The notes below the pieces were generated by a model that saw nothing but the letters and a program-made list of their open reading frames with translations, had not been told where the DNA came from and did no database searches. A stretch of DNA of 64,000 nucleotides, from NCBI GenBank assembly GCA_900696495.1, contig CAADGI010000014.1:248001-312000 (forward strand), read 5' to 3'. This stretch comes from an uncultured Alphaproteobacteria bacterium. Lineage in GTDB: Bacteria; Pseudomonadota; Alphaproteobacteria; Micavibrionales; Micavibrionaceae. Positions 17,073-52,586 of the stretch are shown one piece after another; within the stretch, counting starts at the first letter, position 1, and every line of letters starts with the position of its first letter. The position numbers and the translations under genes are program-made.

Positions 17073-17666
17073 ATGAAAAATCTGGGTAAATTCACTTTTG
17101 GTGTAAAGCGTCTTTTCGGTTTCGCGTCAAAGCAGGAAATTTCTGCGCAGGATGCTGCGGATCTTCAGGAGCTATCCGAAAATTTTTTGAAAGCCTTGTC
17201 CAGAAAGGGTTATAGGGGGCCCTCAGCCACGATTGAAAACATCAACGAGATTTATATTCACCCGGTTCATCCTAAAGTTTTGACAATAGAAACCAATCTT
17301 CGCAATCCGGGCGGAATTTGGATTCCAGTCACCATCGATTTCATGGAAAGCGCATGGGGCAGTACGAGACTCAAACGCGCGGTCGAGTTACTGGGTTTTA
17401 ATCTTGTTTCCACCGTAAAAAGCCCGATTCTTGTCGGTCTGAATCCAAGGAATTTTTCCGTTACCAAAACCGGGCGACAGTCAGGGCCGAAACAGGATAT
17501 TTACGCAGCTTCCTGGCACCCCGACTTTTCTATGGAAGTGGTGATGGTCGACGCTCCTCATAAATGGTGTGCGAAAGAAGCTTTGAAAGTTGGCCGTGAT
17601 GCGCCTGCGGCAAGTGAAGCGGTCATCGAGGCGCCGCAGTCAGCCAGGATGGAGTTGACGCAATGA
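17073..17666 (+). CDS. Protein of unknown function, first of a paralogous pair
   Basis: 197 residues, soluble, no signal peptide or membrane segment. The motif LVGLNPRNFSV near residue 120, followed by a Tyr-containing strand, recurs in the next gene as [11 protein letters not shown]. Its last codons overlap the start of that gene by four bases (ATGA), so the two are translationally coupled. I recognise no family. The likely role is as a pair of related subunits, which is inference. Confidence 0.7.
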   Translation: MKNLGKFTFGVKRLFGFASKQEISAQDAADLQELSENFLKALSRKGYRGPSATIENINEIYIHPVHPKVLTIETNLRNPGGIWIPVTIDFMESAWGSTRLKRAVELLGFNLVSTVKSPILVGLNPRNFSVTKTGRQSGPKQDIYAASWHPDFSMEVVMVDAPHKWCAKEALKVGRDAPAASEAVIEAPQSARMELTQ

Positions 17667-18346
17667 TCGCGCTGAAAAAAATTTTCAACTATCCGTTCAC
17701 TGTAACTACGGATGAAGCCAACGCTGCGGTTAAAGTCGACCGCGATGCCATTATGAATTGGCTCGACCAACATAAAATCGACATTAACAATGTTATAAAA
17801 TTATATATCGCCGAGAAAAAACTCGAAAGACTGCGCGCCGCTGAAGCGCCGATGGCTGTTCCGCCGCGGATCGTGATCCGTATGGATGCGCAAAATTCCT
17901 ATAAAGAAAAAGAAATCGATTTTTTCGGCGGATGGTTCAACACATTGCAGGCCGCGTTTGAGGATATAACAGAGATTGATGTGGGTTTTGCCAGCGGTTT
18001 GGAAAAAAGGCTGAAGCACACAATCGAGGCGATGAGTTTCGTGGAGCTGGAACTGGCAAATGGTCAACATGTCGGTTTCAATCCCCGTAAATTCACTGTT
18101 TTGGAAAGGGAAGCCGGGTCCATCAACAGGTATATTTACAGCCATGTCGCGGATGAAAAAGGATTCACAACTGCCGTGAAGGGCTATTACAAGGATATTC
18201 AAAAGAGTTTCGACGATTATAAAATGTTGATGGCTTCAGCGGAAGCTTACAGAGAGAAAGTGCGGCAGGAACGCTGGGGCGGCAAGCTGACGCCGCATGT
18301 TAATCCGTATCTCAAAGCTTCAAAAACTGATAGACAGCCGCAGTAA
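17663..18346 (+). CDS. Protein of unknown function, second of a paralogous pair
   Basis: 227 residues, coupled to the gene before it and with GGAG eight bases before its ATG. It shares the GFNPRKFTV block and the following IYSHV strand with that gene. The first 60 residues are helical and charged, the last 45 are Tyr/Lys/Arg-rich. The 3' end overlaps that of argH by 35 bases on the opposite strand. Function unknown. Confidence 0.7.
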
Positions 18347-46111: not shown

Positions 46112-46939
46112 TTAGGCCGTGGCCCTGCGGCTGTCTTCCAGCGTTTTCCAGAGCGCGCGGGCGACGCGTTCGACATCCTCGGCAGCGTCGGAATTCGGCG
46201 AGCGGATCAGGATCGGCGTCTGGCTGCGGATGGAATCTTTCACCTTGCTGTCGGCGCGGATGATGCCGGCCATCGGCGGGGTGAGACGGAGGAAATTCTC
46301 GCAGGCCTTGAGCAGGGTTTTGTAGGTTTTCTCGCCCTCCGACGCGCTGGGCGCCATGTTGACGACGATGGAAACATTTTTCGACATGCCCGCCGCGTTG
46401 CCGAGCTTGATGAAGGCGTAGGCGTCGGTGAGCGAGGTGGGTTCGTCGGTGGTGATCAACACTGTGCGCGTCGCCGAAGCGGAAAGCATTCTTACAGTCC
46501 GGTCGACGCCCGCGCCGAGGTCGGCGATCACAACGTCATATTGCTCCGAAACATCGATGAGCTGGTCGCGCAAAATAGTCAGGCGCTGCGAGGGCAGGGC
46601 GGAGAGCGAAGCCTGTCCCGAGCGGCCCGCGATGATATCGAAGCCCCCTTCTTCAAAAGGTTGGATGACTTTGTCGATCGAGAGGCGGCCACGAATAACA
46701 TCGTTCAGGTCGCGCTTGGGCATCAGGCCCAATTGAACGTCCACGTTCGCGAGGCCCAGATCGCCGTCGAACAGCAGCACTTTGCGCCCGGCCTTGGCCA
46801 TGGCGTGGGCGAGGGTGATGGAAAACCAGGTCTTGCCGACGCCGCCTTTGCCGCTGGCGACCGCGAGGATATTGCGCCCCCGCCTGAAGGACGGGCCGCC
46901 GGTCTGCGGGTCGAGCATTTCCTGTGTCTCGGTGGTCAT
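46112..46939 (-). CDS. flhG: MinD-like ATPase FlhG (FleN)
   Basis: 275 residues. The deviant Walker A is ASGKGGVGKTWFS, followed by LLFDGDLGLANVDVQLG. FlhG limits flagellar number and acts with the GTPase FlhF at the pole. The start overlaps the flhF stop by four bases, so the two are coupled. The usual N-terminal DQAxxLR motif that activates FlhF is not evident. Confidence 0.92.
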   Translation of the reverse strand: MTTETQEMLDPQTGGPSFRRGRNILAVASGKGGVGKTWFSITLAHAMAKAGRKVLLFDGDLGLANVDVQLGLMPKRDLNDVIRGRLSIDKVIQPFEEGGFDIIAGRSGQASLSALPSQRLTILRDQLIDVSEQYDVVIADLGAGVDRTVRMLSASATRTVLITTDEPTSLTDAYAFIKLGNAAGMSKNVSIVVNMAPSASEGEKTYKTLLKACENFLRLTPPMAGIIRADSKVKDSIRSQTPILIRSPNSDAAEDVERVARALWKTLEDSRRATA

Positions 46940-47970
46940 TGCCTGCTTCCTGCTTTCTTATACTCTTTTTTTCCTTGCGTGTATGCCCCCGGCATCAAAA
47001 GCGCCGACAGGGAACGCGGGTCCAAACCGAACAGGCCGTCCGCCACCTTCGGCGTGTTGCTGGCGTCTGCAAAAGTCATGCCGCCATGGTGCGCGGCCGA
47101 TAAAATACCGCCCAGACGCCGCGCGATATCGACCCGCGTGGCGATCAGGCTGTGCACCCCGATGGCCGCGAAAACCCGCGCCATTTCACCGGATTCGTCA
47201 GCGTCAGTCCCGGCGGGCAGGACGAAATAAGGGTCGATTTCGGCGGCGCCGATGAACCGCGCGGCGTTTTTGACGTCGTTCTGGTCGAAGGGGTTGACGC
47301 CCGGTGTATCGATGAAAACCTGGTCGTAGCCCTGCAGGCCGCGCAGCATCTCGGCAAGCTCCTGCGCGTTCGCGGCTTTTTTGAGATCGATGCGCAGAAG
47401 TTTGGTGAAGGCGGCGAGCTGCTCGACTCCCCCGGCGCGGACCGTATCCGCTGAAATCACCCCGACCCGCAGGCCCCCCATCACGCCGCGCGCGGCGGCC
47501 TTGGCGACAGCGAGAGTTTTGCCTGAACCCGGCGGCCCGACCATCATGATCGGTTTTTTATGCGCCTTCTGCGGCAGCGGCTGGAAATTATAAAGATGCT
47601 CGATCGCGGCAATCAGCGCGATGGAGGGCTGCTCGAGGCCCACCACGGTGGCGCAGGAGAGAATCTGGTCCATGACGTCTTCGGGCACGGAATGGCGGAG
47701 CAGCACTTCCGTCAGCTCCTCGGCGATGAGCGATTGCTCCTCTTCCTCGTCATATTGCAGCCAGTCGTCGCCCTCGGCGGGGGTGGACGACTTGCCGATC
47801 TCGAAGGCGGGCGCGCCGTAGGAGGGCGGGTCGATGGCGGCGGTCACATGCACGGCCTTGCCGCCCTTTTCCTCGCGGGTGGCAACTATGATCGCATCTT
47901 CACCGAGCGTATCGCGGATCATCTGCATCGCCTCTGTCATTGTCCTGGCATAAAAGGATTTCAGCCGCAT
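46936..47970 (-). CDS. flhF: Flagellar SRP-type GTPase FlhF, divergent
   Basis: 344 residues. The N-terminal region (MRLKSFYARTMTEAMQMIR) is characteristic of FlhF. The GTPase domain has MVGPPGSGKTLAVAKAA for G1 and SADTVRAGGVEQLAAF for the SRP-specific insertion. The G3 motif reads DTPGVN rather than DTAGR, so this copy is divergent. FlhF marks the pole at which the flagellum is built. It is followed by flhG; flhA, its usual upstream neighbour, is 2.5 kb away behind four unknown genes. Confidence 0.88.
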   Translation of the reverse strand: MRLKSFYARTMTEAMQMIRDTLGEDAIIVATREEKGGKAVHVTAAIDPPSYGAPAFEIGKSSTPAEGDDWLQYDEEEEQSLIAEELTEVLLRHSVPEDVMDQILSCATVVGLEQPSIALIAAIEHLYNFQPLPQKAHKKPIMMVGPPGSGKTLAVAKAAARGVMGGLRVGVISADTVRAGGVEQLAAFTKLLRIDLKKAANAQELAEMLRGLQGYDQVFIDTPGVNPFDQNDVKNAARFIGAAEIDPYFVLPAGTDADESGEMARVFAAIGVHSLIATRVDIARRLGGILSAAHHGGMTFADASNTPKVADGLFGLDPRSLSALLMPGAYTQGKKEYKKAGSRQ

Positions 47971-48080
47971 GGGAGAAACTTGCTTACTCGAATCAGCCTA
48001 AATTATAAATTTTCCGGAAAAAGGTTTCCAGAGCAATTTTATTATATTTTACAGGAAAGTGGGGGTGGAAAAGGCGGGTT

Positions 48081-48710
48081 TCAACCCAAATCTCGTGAGG
48101 GAAGTGTTTCCCGTCTCAATGGCGCGTTTTTCAGCACTTCAAGAGCGCTTTCAAAACGATGCCTTTTGGCTTCAATTTCATCGCGGGTCTTGCCGTATGT
48201 TTTATACCAGGACCGCCTTTCATTATTGAACGCGATGGAACTGGCATTGAAAAGAGGGGCATAGGCATTAATGATATAATTGTCCGGGTTGCTTCCTTTA
48301 ATCGGCTGGATTTTGGCAAGAATGATGCCATTCGGAATGCCGTCTTCGGTATTTGGACGGCTCCAGTTAGGCCATGATGCCGAAACCGTGGGCCATTTAC
48401 CCGCCCGCCATTCATCGGCGGCAAATCCTGAAAGGAAAACCTTGCCGCTTACCGGAGCAATAACGGGCACATTGCCGCACAGCGCGATTTGCGTTCCCGC
48501 CCAAACAAGTTCATTACGAACGCCGTAATTCAGTTCCGATGTTCTCCGGCAAGCAAAATTGAAAGCCGATGTAATCGCCGGGGGCGGTACAGGAATGACA
48601 ATCAGGTAATTTTCGAGAGGCGTATCGGGATGTGGAGGTATCTGACTTTCAGGTTTCAGAACCGGATAAGTTTCAGCAGGTTTAACAAACCAATTTGAAA
48701 AAATGCTCAT
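48081..48710 (-). CDS. Unknown protein of the flhA-flhF island, lipoyl-like fold hint
   Basis: 209 residues from the ATG at 48710, with GGAG nearby. The middle reads LVWAGTQIALCGN then VPVIAPVSGKVFL, a pattern typical of the biotinyl/lipoyl barrel fold, but without the modified Lys context. No signal peptide or membrane segment. It is the last of four AT-richer genes and has the same layout as the two larger ones upstream. Function unknown. Confidence 0.65.
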   Translation of the reverse strand: MSIFSNWFVKPAETYPVLKPESQIPPHPDTPLENYLIVIPVPPPAITSAFNFACRRTSELNYGVRNELVWAGTQIALCGNVPVIAPVSGKVFLSGFAADEWRAGKWPTVSASWPNWSRPNTEDGIPNGIILAKIQPIKGSNPDNYIINAYAPLFNASSIAFNNERRSWYKTYGKTRDEIEAKRHRFESALEVLKNAPLRRETLPSRDLG

Positions 48711-48742
48711 CACTCAATCTCCACGCAGTTAATTTGTCTAAT

Positions 48743-49327
48743 TTATCGATTCAAAACGGGAATGACCGTGACATACCCCATTTTATCAATCTCATCGTTG
48801 ATAATGTAGTTTACGTTATCTTCTGAACGTAATGCTTGACCATCCTCATCATAACGAAGAGCCATAAAGACATCCTGACATAAACGTCCGTAAGGAAGGG
48901 GAACTGGTATAAAACGTAAAGATTTTTCGGCCTGTTCGACTGGCATGTGTCTGTATTTTTCTGCTTCAGTCAGCGGCAGTAACGGTTGGTAAGCAAAGAG
49001 ATATTTTGATGTCTCGCTATTTAGAGTTTCAGTAATGATTCCATTATTCGGCATTAAAATCTCGCCGGGTTTTGAGCCGCCAAACCATGCGCGTGATTTA
49101 AGATTAAATTGTCCAATAAGGGAACGTCCCTGAACATGGTCTCCCGGGCTGGCCTTCCATTCCAGAAAAAGTTTTTTCTTGTAATGAACTCCGTGTAAGG
49201 CTTTATAAAACACCTGGCTAAGCTGTGGCACAGCGATGACAAAAGGAATGGGCGCATAACGCGTGCGGTCTTTAAATTCAGGATTCGTGTTAATACCGTC
49301 AGGTTCGCTCTTGTTCCAAAATCCCAT
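48743..49327 (-). CDS. Unknown protein of the flhA-flhF island
   Basis: 194 residues from the ATG at 49327 (MGFWNKSEPD) with GTGGAGAAAAAT before it. Residues 8-75 match the 204-residue protein at 49705: both have GINTNP, a Pro-rich strand, then FLEWKASPGDHV with GRSLIGQFNLK. The GDHV-x-G-x-IG pattern suits a lipoyl-like barrel. A C-terminal strand YVTVIPVLNR is also shared. Function unknown. Confidence 0.7.
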   Translation of the reverse strand: MGFWNKSEPDGINTNPEFKDRTRYAPIPFVIAVPQLSQVFYKALHGVHYKKKLFLEWKASPGDHVQGRSLIGQFNLKSRAWFGGSKPGEILMPNNGIITETLNSETSKYLFAYQPLLPLTEAEKYRHMPVEQAEKSLRFIPVPLPYGRLCQDVFMALRYDEDGQALRSEDNVNYIINDEIDKMGYVTVIPVLNR

Positions 49328-49348
49328 ATTTTTCTCCACTAATTAAAT

Positions 49349-49684
49349 TTAATCGAAACGCCAATGTAATTCTGCGCTTGCGTTATCAATTTCCTGCGCG
49401 AAAGATTCAACTTCTTTATCTATGTGGTAAGTCCCTCTCCTGTCTCCCGTGACAACCGTGCATATACCGCCTCCATTATCGTGGACTTCTTCTAACTTTG
49501 TTGTCGTCTTGCCCGTAATGGGAAATTGGGAAACGTAATTGAATTCTCTCTGGGAACGTTTAACCCGTTGCCAAAGGCTGCGTGTTAAAACGCGATAGGA
49601 GATGATCGCGTCGGCCGCGACTTCACATTCGTAGCTATGGTCCTTCGTATTGAATTCCGGACTTGCAGGAAATTTGCGGCCCAT
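49349..49684 (-). CDS. Unknown small protein of the flhA-flhF island
   Basis: 111 residues with GGAGTAGATAGA directly before the ATG. It seems beta-rich, starting MGRKFPASPEFNTKDHSYE, with a GGGICTVVTGDRRGTYHI stretch. It does not resemble the other three island genes. No membrane segment, no known family. Confidence 0.65.
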   Translation of the reverse strand: MGRKFPASPEFNTKDHSYECEVAADAIISYRVLTRSLWQRVKRSQREFNYVSQFPITGKTTTKLEEVHDNGGGICTVVTGDRRGTYHIDKEVESFAQEIDNASAELHWRFD

Positions 49685-49704
49685 TCTATCTACTCCAGCA
49701 TTGT

Positions 49705-50319
49705 TTAAGGTTCGACAGGTATGAGCGTCGGCAGCATATGGCTGTACTGCTTTTCAATGTAGTTTTTGACAGGAACTGTGTTTGGGCCAACCATCCAGCT
49801 TTCAAAGCTGCGCCTGTTTTCGCCACCCTTGAGAATGCGGATAGCCTCCGCAACATCCCGGTAAATGTTTTCAGGATGGGATTTTTCCTTGAGCGCCTCT
49901 TGTTTTTTATCATCGCTTAATGATAACGAGAGCGGGCCGTGTTTCTGGGAATAAGTAACGGGTAACAGGCGCTGATAAGAGAACAGCATTTCCGAACTCA
50001 GGATGTCATGGGTCTCTCTGATGATGCATGGAAAAGGTAAGTGAATTGCAGGTTGAAGAGACTGAAGCAGGTTACCTTTAAGATGAAAACGGCCAATGGG
50101 CGTGCCGGGATCGACATGATCGCCGCGCTCGACAAGCCACTCAAAAAATTCTCTTTTGGGCGCACAGTTTTTCTGGAGGTAATCAAGCAGCTCCGGTGTC
50201 AGGTTGGGCTGGGCTGTAATGTAGGGCACCGCTTCATATTTTGCCGGGTTGCGAAGGTTCGGGTTGGTGTTGATGCCGAATGTGTCTGTAAGGCTCTTTT
50301 TCTTAGGGGTTAGGCTCAT
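49705..50319 (-). CDS. Unknown protein of the flhA-flhF island, paralogue of 48743-49327
   Basis: 204 residues from the ATG at 50319 (MSLTPKKKSL), with CGGAGATAAAA before it. The blocks GINTNPNLRNPAKYE, EWLVERGDHVDPGTPIGRF and SYQRLLPVTYSQKHGPL correspond to blocks of the 194-residue protein downstream. The GDHV-dPGTPIG block looks like the edge of a lipoyl or biotinyl barrel. It is the first gene of the island after flhA. Function unknown. Confidence 0.7.
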   Translation of the reverse strand: MSLTPKKKSLTDTFGINTNPNLRNPAKYEAVPYITAQPNLTPELLDYLQKNCAPKREFFEWLVERGDHVDPGTPIGRFHLKGNLLQSLQPAIHLPFPCIIRETHDILSSEMLFSYQRLLPVTYSQKHGPLSLSLSDDKKQEALKEKSHPENIYRDVAEAIRILKGGENRRSFESWMVGPNTVPVKNYIEKQYSHMLPTLIPVEP

Positions 50320-50404
50320 TTTTATCTCCGTGGTGAAACGCCTGTTCATCCACTCGTAGCGCAGCGGGTATAACTATGTCAATTATTTTATGGCAAAGAG
50401 TGGG

Positions 50405-50440
50405 TGGAAACCCGCTAATTCATTAAACTTCTGCGGGTAT
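50405..50440 (-). terminator. Possible terminator after flhA
   Basis: ACCCGC and GCGGGT pair around a 17-base AT-rich loop just after the flhA stop, followed by TTTCC on the minus strand. It would separate flhA from the island. Confidence 0.35.
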
Positions 50441-50441
50441 T

Positions 50442-52586
50442 TTAAATCTGCCCGAGTGTCCTGATCCGCGCCTTCGGGTGGATTTCATTCTGCGACATCA
50501 CCACGGTTTGCGGCCGGAACCGCTCGATCACGCTGCGCACATAGGGGCGGATGCCAGGCGAGGTGAGGAGCACGGGAATTTCGCCCTCCATCGAAAACCG
50601 CTCATACGCATTGCGGATGGTGCCGATGAATTCCTGCAGGCGCGAGGGCGGCATGGCGAGTTGCTTGTCCTCGCCCGCGCCGACGAGGGACTCCACAAAA
50701 GCCTGCTCCCATTCCGGCGACATGGTGACGAGCGGCACGACGCCGTTATTGTTCGTCGCTGAATCGCAGAGCTGCCGCGCAAGGCGCGAGCGCACATGCT
50801 CGGTGATATGCGCGGTGTTCTTGGTGTAGGCGGCGGCCTCGGCGATGCCTTCGAGAATGGCGGGCATGTCGCGCACCGAAACGCGTTCGGAGAGAAGACG
50901 TTGTAAAACTCTTTGCAGCCCGCCGATTGAAACCTGCGTTGGCACGACGTCGGCCACGAGCTTCTGGTATTCCTGGCCGAGTTCGTTGAGCAGCTTCTGC
51001 GTCTCGGCGTAGTTCAGCAGGTCGGGCATGTTGTCCTTGATGATTTCCGTCAGGTGCGTGGTGATGACGGTGGGCGCGTCCACGACTGTATATCCCTTGA
51101 ACTGCGCTTCCTCGCGGTAACGTTCATCGATCCACATCGCGGGCAGGCCAAATGTCGGCTCGGTCGTGCTTTCGCCGGGCAGGGAAATGGGCGAGCCGGT
51201 CGGGTCCATGCACATCAGCATGCCGGGCCGCACTTCGCCGCGCCCGGATTCAATTTCTTTAATACGCACGGTGTAGGTGGAGGCGGGAAGTTGAAGGTTA
51301 TCTTGAATCCGCACGGCGGGAAGGACGTAACCCATATCTTCCGCGAGCTGTCTGCGCAGGCCCTTGATCTGGTCGGTGAGCTTGTTGCCGCCTTCGCCCT
51401 GCACGAGCGGAAGGAGGCCGTAGCCAAGCTCAAGCCGGATCGTATCCATGGCGAGCGCCTTCGAGATCGGCTCCTCCGCCGGTTTGACGCCAACGGGTTT
51501 CGCGGTTTTCGCCTCGATGGCTTTTTGCTCGGCGATTGCCTGGCGCTGGAACGACATGTAGGCAAGGCCGCCGATGACCGCGGCGAGCGTGAGGAACGGC
51601 GCGGCGGGAATGACGGGCACAAGGCCGAGCGCGACCAGCAACCCCGACGTCATGGCCAGCGCGCGCGGATAGCGGCTGAACTGGTCGAACAGCGCCTGGT
51701 CGGCGGAGCCTTCGACTCCCGCCTTGGAAACGAGGAGACCCGCGGAAACCGAAACGATCAGCGCCGGGATCTGCGTGACAAGACCGTCGCCGATGGTGAG
51801 GAGCGTGTAGTTCTTCGCCGCGTCGGCGAGGCTCATGTCACGCGAAACGACGCCGATGATGATGCCGCCGATAACGTTGACGAAGACGATGAGAAGGCCC
51901 GCGATCGCATCGCCGCGCACGAATTTCGCCGCGCCGTCCATCGCGCCGTAGAACGTGCTTTCCTGCTCGAGCTTCTTGCGGCGGAGCTTGGCTTCGTCCT
52001 CGGTGATCAGGCCGGCGGAAAGGTCGGCGTCGATCGCCATCTGCTTGCCGGGCATGGCGTCCAGGGTGAAGCGCGCCGCGACTTCGGCGATGCGGCCCGA
52101 GCCTTTCGTAATAACCACGAAGTTGACGATGACGAGAATGGCGAAAACGATGGTGCCGATCACATATTCGCCGCCGACGATGAACGTGCCGAACGCTTCG
52201 ATGACGTGACCGGCGGCGTCCGGCCCTTCATGCCCGTTCTCGAGGATAAGCCGGACCGACGCGACGTTCAGCGCGAGGCGTAATGATGTCGCGACCAGCA
52301 ACACGGTCGGAAAGGTGGAGAAGTCGAGCGGGTGCTGGATGAACAGCACCGTCATTAAAATCATGACCGAGAGCGCGACTGAAATCGACAGGCCGAAATC
52401 CAGCAGGAAGGTCGGCACCGGGATCAGCATGAACAGGATGATCATGACGATCGCGAGCGCGAAGATCACGTCGCCGCGGAAATAAGGGGCAATCGACGCC
52501 ATCGTTCCGCCAGCCGCAGGCGCGCCGCCGGGCGCGGCAGCGAAATTGGTGGTGGCAGGCAGTCTTGAACCGGGCGCGTCGGCCAT
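50442..52586 (-). CDS. flhA: Flagellar export gate protein FlhA
   Basis: 714 residues. The N-terminal half has about eight membrane segments; the conserved FHIPEP-type block is seen in LDAMPGKQMAIDADLSAGLI and FVRGDAIAGLLIVFVN. The C-terminal cytoplasmic half (from about residue 370) docks export substrates and chaperones. The first 25 residues are Ala/Pro-rich. It is the main gate of the flagellar type III secretion system, working with FliI, FliH and FliJ, all coded in this window. Confidence 0.97.
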   Translation of the reverse strand: MADAPGSRLPATTNFAAAPGGAPAAGGTMASIAPYFRGDVIFALAIVMIILFMLIPVPTFLLDFGLSISVALSVMILMTVLFIQHPLDFSTFPTVLLVATSLRLALNVASVRLILENGHEGPDAAGHVIEAFGTFIVGGEYVIGTIVFAILVIVNFVVITKGSGRIAEVAARFTLDAMPGKQMAIDADLSAGLITEDEAKLRRKKLEQESTFYGAMDGAAKFVRGDAIAGLLIVFVNVIGGIIIGVVSRDMSLADAAKNYTLLTIGDGLVTQIPALIVSVSAGLLVSKAGVEGSADQALFDQFSRYPRALAMTSGLLVALGLVPVIPAAPFLTLAAVIGGLAYMSFQRQAIAEQKAIEAKTAKPVGVKPAEEPISKALAMDTIRLELGYGLLPLVQGEGGNKLTDQIKGLRRQLAEDMGYVLPAVRIQDNLQLPASTYTVRIKEIESGRGEVRPGMLMCMDPTGSPISLPGESTTEPTFGLPAMWIDERYREEAQFKGYTVVDAPTVITTHLTEIIKDNMPDLLNYAETQKLLNELGQEYQKLVADVVPTQVSIGGLQRVLQRLLSERVSVRDMPAILEGIAEAAAYTKNTAHITEHVRSRLARQLCDSATNNNGVVPLVTMSPEWEQAFVESLVGAGEDKQLAMPPSRLQEFIGTIRNAYERFSMEGEIPVLLTSPGIRPYVRSVIERFRPQTVVMSQNEIHPKARIRTLGQI

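Follow-up and report, generated by a model that had tools for sequence, protein, structure and literature searches.

In the family Micavibrionaceae, the boundary between flhA and flhF appears to serve as a docking site at which accessory genes are tolerated, and in the genome analysed here it is occupied by four small genes, orfA to orfD. Our overall reading, held with moderate confidence, is that such a site carries barrel-like and PH-like adaptor proteins in the genus concerned and that their alleles are exchanged by way of conserved flanks. The analysis started from a stretch of 64,000 nucleotides (the window) in a genome of 2,043,818 bases in 25 contigs, the family of which we take to be that of Micavibrio aeruginosavorus.

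The genes lie on the minus strand in the order flhA, orfA, orfB, orfC, orfD, flhF, flhG. The left neighbour, flhA (50442..52586), was identified by an FHIPEP match (E 5e-262), and the right neighbour, flhF (46936..47970), encodes an SRP54-type GTPase; flhG (46112..46939), named from sequence and position, overlaps flhF by 4 nt. The first gene, orfA (49705..50319, 204 aa), has an open reading frame that opens at 50349, with GGAG preceding the ATG at 50319; it is followed by orfB (49349..49684, 111 aa), orfC (48743..49327, 194 aa, open reading frame opening at 49339), and orfD (48081..48710, 209 aa, with a GTG at 48713 adjacent to the chosen start). GGAG stands 6-8 nt ahead of a plausible ATG in each of them (read by eye), and they are spaced by about 20-32 nt. 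A preliminary description made from the sequence alone, in which four genes with strong ribosome sites split flhA from flhF and form an AT-richer island, is thus confirmed on both points. The computed G+C is 43-49% against 57%, namely 49.0, 47.1, 42.8, and 48.5% for orfA, orfB, orfC, and orfD, whereas 48 background ORFs taken from the window average 57.2% (sd 3.8). GC3 is low as well, below all 48 background ORFs for orfB, orfC, and orfD and below all but 5 of them for orfA. Elsewhere in the window, two successive plus-strand ORFs (17073-18346) have GC3 values close to 0.5, which places them with the lowest background ORFs, and are possibly another accessory pair.

The spacing of flhA and flhF was surveyed in 95 relatives, with flhA present in 86 genomes and flhF in 85. 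Pairs on the same contig and strand within 10 kb were counted as linked, giving 58 linked and 23 unlinked pairs. The gap exceeded 400 bp in both linked genomes of the window's own genus (2/2) and in 31 of the 36 linked genomes from other genera of the family, the cargo within the family measuring 0.5-3.5 kb, but in only 3 of 20 linked genomes from other families of the order. Junctions shorter than 300 bp were found in the remaining 5/36 of the family. Among 80 named flhA loci from a public genome collection, flhF lay downstream in 48; four of these belonged to the family (L005, L006, L007, and L057) and were set aside, and the other 44, all outside the family, had gaps of at most 373 bp. The premise that flhA, flhF, and flhG are normally adjacent is therefore largely borne out for flhA-flhF outside the family (0/44 named loci above 373 bp), and the short junctions, which occur within the family and prevail beyond it, support the view of the interval as accessory. 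Three of the family loci extend far enough to include both flhF and flhG, which are 3, -3, and 10 nt apart there, so that, as far as tested, only the flhA/flhF boundary is loosened; a looser gene order across the whole family is conceivable, the control being flhF-flhG alone in three loci and the window.

For the contents of the gap, 60 stretches were compared, with flhA and flhF both visible in 43 and one of the two in the rest. The contents were mostly unrelated from genus to genus. DUF3137 proteins were found in 9/36 linked family genomes (G011, G023, G024, G026, G028, G047, G051, G053, and G055), and DUF3137 genes also stood beside flhA or flhF in G025, G037, and G054, where the pair is unlinked. 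Within one genus of the M. aeruginosavorus type, G024 had two DUF3137 genes at the gap and G053 one (L104, L105). Relatives of orfB occupied the gap in three of the 36 (G013, G049, and G048, from two other genera), with three tandem copies in G048. Colicin-D/immunity pairs were present in two (G028 and G059). In these two loci (L116 and L117), the Colicin_D-type toxin genes and Colicin_immun genes lie on the strand opposite flhA, and some of the Colicin_D proteins carry PG_binding_1 and Phage_Mu_F domains; partial tandem duplication was also seen. The gap of G002 contains an opposite-strand ORF of 178 aa (L088, 1054-1590) between the A-type and D-type genes, which had no match under E 0.1 among the other gap proteins.

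The claim that orfA to orfD are unknown genes was upheld by searches of family libraries. No credible match was obtained in Pfam (single line, orfA, E 0.19) or PHROG (single line, orfB, E 0.054), nothing matched in NCBIfam, the PDB sequence search gave no match, and PADLOC gave a single weak line, in which orfB matched a type I specificity model (E 0.0029, 14.7 bits). Searches of viral contigs with three alignments, of plasmids with orfA, and of phages with the L163 protein found none. The four small proteins are undescribed in the libraries searched. These results bear on the possibility that orfA to orfD are polymorphic immunity, toxin, or defence proteins, variable through competition or phages, with the site serving as a small arsenal locus. 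The colicin-D-type toxin and immunity genes in the same gap of G028 and G059 speak for it, as do the strong sequence turnover and the small tandem paralogues. We nevertheless regard it as unlikely. Pfam shows no toxin or immunity match for orfA to orfD, PADLOC gives one weak line (orfB), and the queries run against viral contigs, phages, and plasmids found nothing. Strand and context differ as well, in that orfA to orfD share the strand of the flagellar genes and follow a conserved leader, and the colicin-type genes run the other way.

Two of the proteins had been called clear paralogues, and for orfA and orfC this was verified (phmmer 3e-19, 31-32% amino acid identity). When orfA and orfC were combined with their G001 and G002 counterparts in a profile, it matched 3/104 family genomes and a distant one in G039 (E 1e-6); a wider profile matched one of 385 genomes in a sample of the class, the genome of the window itself, G001 and G002 not being listed in that sample. 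An A-type gene follows flhA in all three species of the genus (G000, G001, and G002). The counterpart of orfD in G001 is a fused protein of 322 aa at the same place, the C-terminal part of which is similar to orfD (2e-7), and in G002 a D-type gene is apparently present, as fragments at contig ends, the 3' fragment being recognised by eye. A weaker orfD match was found in G109 (3e-4), and one in G023 (E 0.039), to a frame that looked YbgF-like by eye, was put down to chance. Compared with orfA to orfD, the proteins of G001, G109, and G039 are extended, an N-terminal domain of ~105 residues preceding an orfD-like or orfA/C-like part. Their N-terminal domains are alike pairwise (9e-8, 3e-4, and 0.002), and in the G039 protein an orfA-like part follows this domain (1e-5). 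When the orfD-type and orfA/C-type profiles were compared directly (hhalign), the score was not significant and the motif was left unaligned. The fused relatives are the best argument that orfD and orfA/orfC may be versions of one domain. The earlier proposal that a third protein shares a pattern with the paralogues is accordingly supported for orfD by the architecture of the fused relatives, with a low-confidence model, and not by the profile comparison. Two further observations concern the N-terminal domain. In G109 (L179, C6:12000-22000), the gene for the fused N-domain and orfD-like protein lies 2.6 kb upstream of flhA and is flanked by an NtrC-type regulator gene on one side and by NfeD/SPFH-like genes on the other (names given by eye). 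In G039 (C26; L181/L169), there is a second N-domain protein, of 245 aa, with a PH-like N-domain and a hydrophobic segment and without the barrel part.

The distribution of these relatives also bears on a second alternative, in which orfA to orfD bind FlhF, FlhG, or the export gate and tune the placement or assembly of a single polar flagellum. Their position after flhA in three of three sisters and before flhF in two or three would suit this, as would the fused G109 relative upstream of flhA beside the NtrC-type regulator, and the predicted PH-like and barrel domains would be suited to protein binding. Yet relatives of orfA/orfC occur in so few family genomes (the 3/104, one distant match aside) despite the same flagellar genes, unrelated genes fill the site in other genera, and no flagellar gene was seen near the G039 relative. 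We judge this alternative improbable as well.

Structure prediction was applied to orfA (model pLDDT 70.7, pTM 0.70; alignment of 4 rows). Its first structural match was the barrel of the aspartoacylase-like 3lwu (E 0.011, prob 0.99). Among the next rows, interspersed with unrelated ones of low probability, were DUF2118 at prob 0.60 and pyruvate carboxylase at 0.44; no match had an E value below 0.001. VIA-align placed the model on 3lwu at Z 5.0 (4.6 A, 83 residues), and after it came H-proteins at Z 4.5 and lower, lipoyl and biotinyl domains, and NqrA/Rnf barrels. Nearly all of the best 50 VIA rows were H-protein, lipoyl, biotinyl, NqrA/Rnf, or aspartoacylase-type barrels. A Z value this low may be a chance outcome, and it is the consistency of the match list that weakly but coherently points to a barrel in orfA. 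The barrel reading extends to orfC through its paralogy with orfA. The best viral structural match of orfA (BFVD) was a lipoyl-type protein (E 0.024); a phage origin of orfA to orfD was considered and dropped, as no viral sequence matched the queries tried. GD-V and P-x-x-G-I patterns are present in the A/C-type sequences, as in biotinyl/lipoyl-type domains. However, no lysine column in the hairpin between the half-motifs is common to A, C, G001, G002, and L150, which makes a carrier role unlikely for orfA and orfC, and the carrier reading was dropped. The resemblance to biotinyl/lipoyl barrels noted at the outset is backed for orfA by its model matches; orfA and orfC would carry a degenerate barrel-sandwich domain of the biotinyl/lipoyl type without a conserved carrier lysine.

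The model of the fused orfD relative from G001 was poor (pLDDT 53.2), and Foldseek listed talin and PH chains among propellers for it at E near 1. For residues 1-105, all of the best 50 VIA rows were PH, PTB, FERM-F3, or Pru domains, at Z up to 7.4; the list spans these residues, with the C-terminal orfD-like part outside the matches. Both Z values, 5.0 and 7.4, lie within the range of chance arrangements. The profile of orfB matched that of the N-domain with an hhalign score of 23.6, which was reached by 0/150 column shuffles, and a wider orfB alignment (A2), aligned over 30 columns, was reached by 1/150. A presumably unrelated pair (A11/A8) likewise gave 0/150, so the link between orfB and the N-domain is suggestive, and orfB may be a stand-alone PH-like domain. 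The Pfam PH profile matched neither orfB nor the fused relatives. The orfD protein probably has a domain related to the barrel of orfA and orfC, and its longer relatives would place a PH-like domain in front.

Sister species diverge strongly within the interval. FlhA is 97-99% identical among sisters (445 codons compared) and the start of FlhF 94% identical between them; the orfA proteins are 33-43% identical and orfD 25%. Synonymous divergence is raised too. Between G001 and G002, dS is 1.37 in the orfA-type gene against 0.43 in flhA, and between G000 and G001 the synonymous sites of orfA are saturated (pS 0.78, a value inflated by codon alignment error at 33-43% amino acid identity) against a dS of 0.65 in flhA. 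The dN/dS of the A-type gene is 0.32 (G001/G002, the sole computable pair), which suggests a maintained protein. Nucleotide identity between G000 and G001 is 84-88% in flhA, about 75% in the orfA leader, near 50%, with a spread of about 40-68%, in the interior, and 97-98% around the start of flhF. Given that inflation, fast evolution in place is a less likely alternative to allele exchange for orfA to orfD. Selection acting on the protein would not be expected by itself to increase synonymous divergence. An exchange of older alleles therefore fits better, and we infer that divergent alleles are swapped at this site, a tolerated one flanked by two transcription units. Recombination within the conserved flanks would replace the alleles of one species with divergent ones from another.

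The flanks contain a repeated element. One copy, promoter-like, lies upstream of orfA (50384..50410, minus strand), and a second lies about 75 nt upstream of flhF (48045..48071, minus strand) and is identical to the first at 22/27 positions; they sit about 65-75 nt upstream of the two genes. The core of the orfA-side element, CTTTGCCATAAAATAATTGACATAGTTAT, runs past 50384..50410 and shows no difference among the three sisters over about 30 nt; the flhF-side copy is also conserved in sister species. The shared core has three occurrences in the genome, the third being upstream of a pal-like gene (by eye) in the same sense, versus one for the reversed control. The near-repeat first reported at both edges is thus real and longer than described (27 nt); the 11-mer by itself is at chance level (3 matches vs 1.9 expected), and the position of its first copy is corrected from 48063 to 48061. 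A sigma-70 scan gave no excess (4 sites vs 3.6 in shuffles), and terminator-like sites numbered 9 against 9.2. We infer that the repeat is a putative promoter-type element of both units rather than an insertion footprint. Since flhF keeps its own conserved leader, DNA arriving past the flhA stop need not silence flhF.

Signs of mobility were looked for in the same region. There was no integrase or transposase Pfam match among orfA to orfD, the adjoining flhF and flhA, and two genes tested beyond them, no tRNA gene in the 64-kb window, and, in place of exact direct repeats at the interval ends, the imperfect 27-nt pair. A one-time horizontally acquired island, inserted by a mobile element that left the edge repeat behind, would suit the low G+C and GC3 and the 27-nt flanking repeat but is very improbable, given the lack of an integrase-like match in the interval and of a tRNA in the window, a repeat that is imperfect and conserved in both copies among sisters though the interior is not, a further core copy upstream of the pal-like gene, and cargo turnover that spans the whole family. 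The acquired cassette suggested in the preliminary description is hence retained as an accessory interval at a cargo site and not as one recent acquisition of one cassette; the single-cassette form is contradicted by the A-type gene in all three species of the genus, by the D-type gene in G001 and apparently G002, and by a family-wide site with unrelated contents elsewhere.

In the docking-site reading, the site of the window's own genus would be filled by small soluble proteins, orfA to orfD, on the flagellar strand and behind a conserved promoter-like element. Their most likely role would be that of protein-protein adaptors, neither enzymes nor carriers, expressed with the flagellar (attack-phase) genes, and this role is favoured over factors specific to FlhF/FlhG and over conflict genes. 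A wider proposal, in which a promoter-equipped exchange locus between conserved leaders swaps whole alleles of a rapidly changing family of PH-like/barrel adaptors, or of toxin/immunity or DUF3137 genes, between lineages and expresses them with the attack-phase flagellar programme, is speculative and on balance doubtful.

Core flagellar gene clusters are usually thought stable. No description of a cargo site between flhA and flhF was found in the literature searched, which covered few subscription journals. In M. aeruginosavorus, the highly expressed attack-phase genes are mostly hypothetical (PMC3189940). The genes at the cargo site are possibly attack-phase genes. In a lineage to which an obligate bacterial predator belongs, a family-wide cargo site within a flagellar cluster offers a defined spot at which to seek lineage-specific genes. 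For structural studies, the site also provides a small protein family that is as yet undescribed.

Several known systems resemble parts of this locus. The biotinyl/lipoyl barrel-sandwich domains (GcvH, BCCP, and lipoyl domains) are like orfA in predicted strand order and in its best matches; orfA differs in having no Pfam, NCBIfam, or PDB sequence match and in its extra C-terminal helices. PH domains occur in bacteria, and the N-domain of the fused relative models with the strand order of the PH-like superfold (PH, PTB, and FERM-F3), a fold not seen in orfA, orfC, or orfD and linked to orfB by a weak profile match. DUF3137 (PF11335) proteins, which are some 300 aa long and by eye have hydrophobic segments close to the N-terminus, share the flhA-flhF gap with orfA to orfD in other genera; sequence comparison of the DUF3137 gap proteins with orfA to orfD showed no similarity, orfA to orfD did not match PF11335, and the sole PF11335 match of the genome (C14:235015-235443) lies outside the window. 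Nor did orfA to orfD match Colicin_D or Colicin_immun in Pfam. Hotspots of accessory genes between conserved genes are a general phenomenon, and the flhA-flhF site is like them in its conserved flanks, changing cargo, and low G+C. It differs from general hotspots in that no tRNA or integrase was seen, in lying inside a flagellar cluster, and in belonging mainly to one family.
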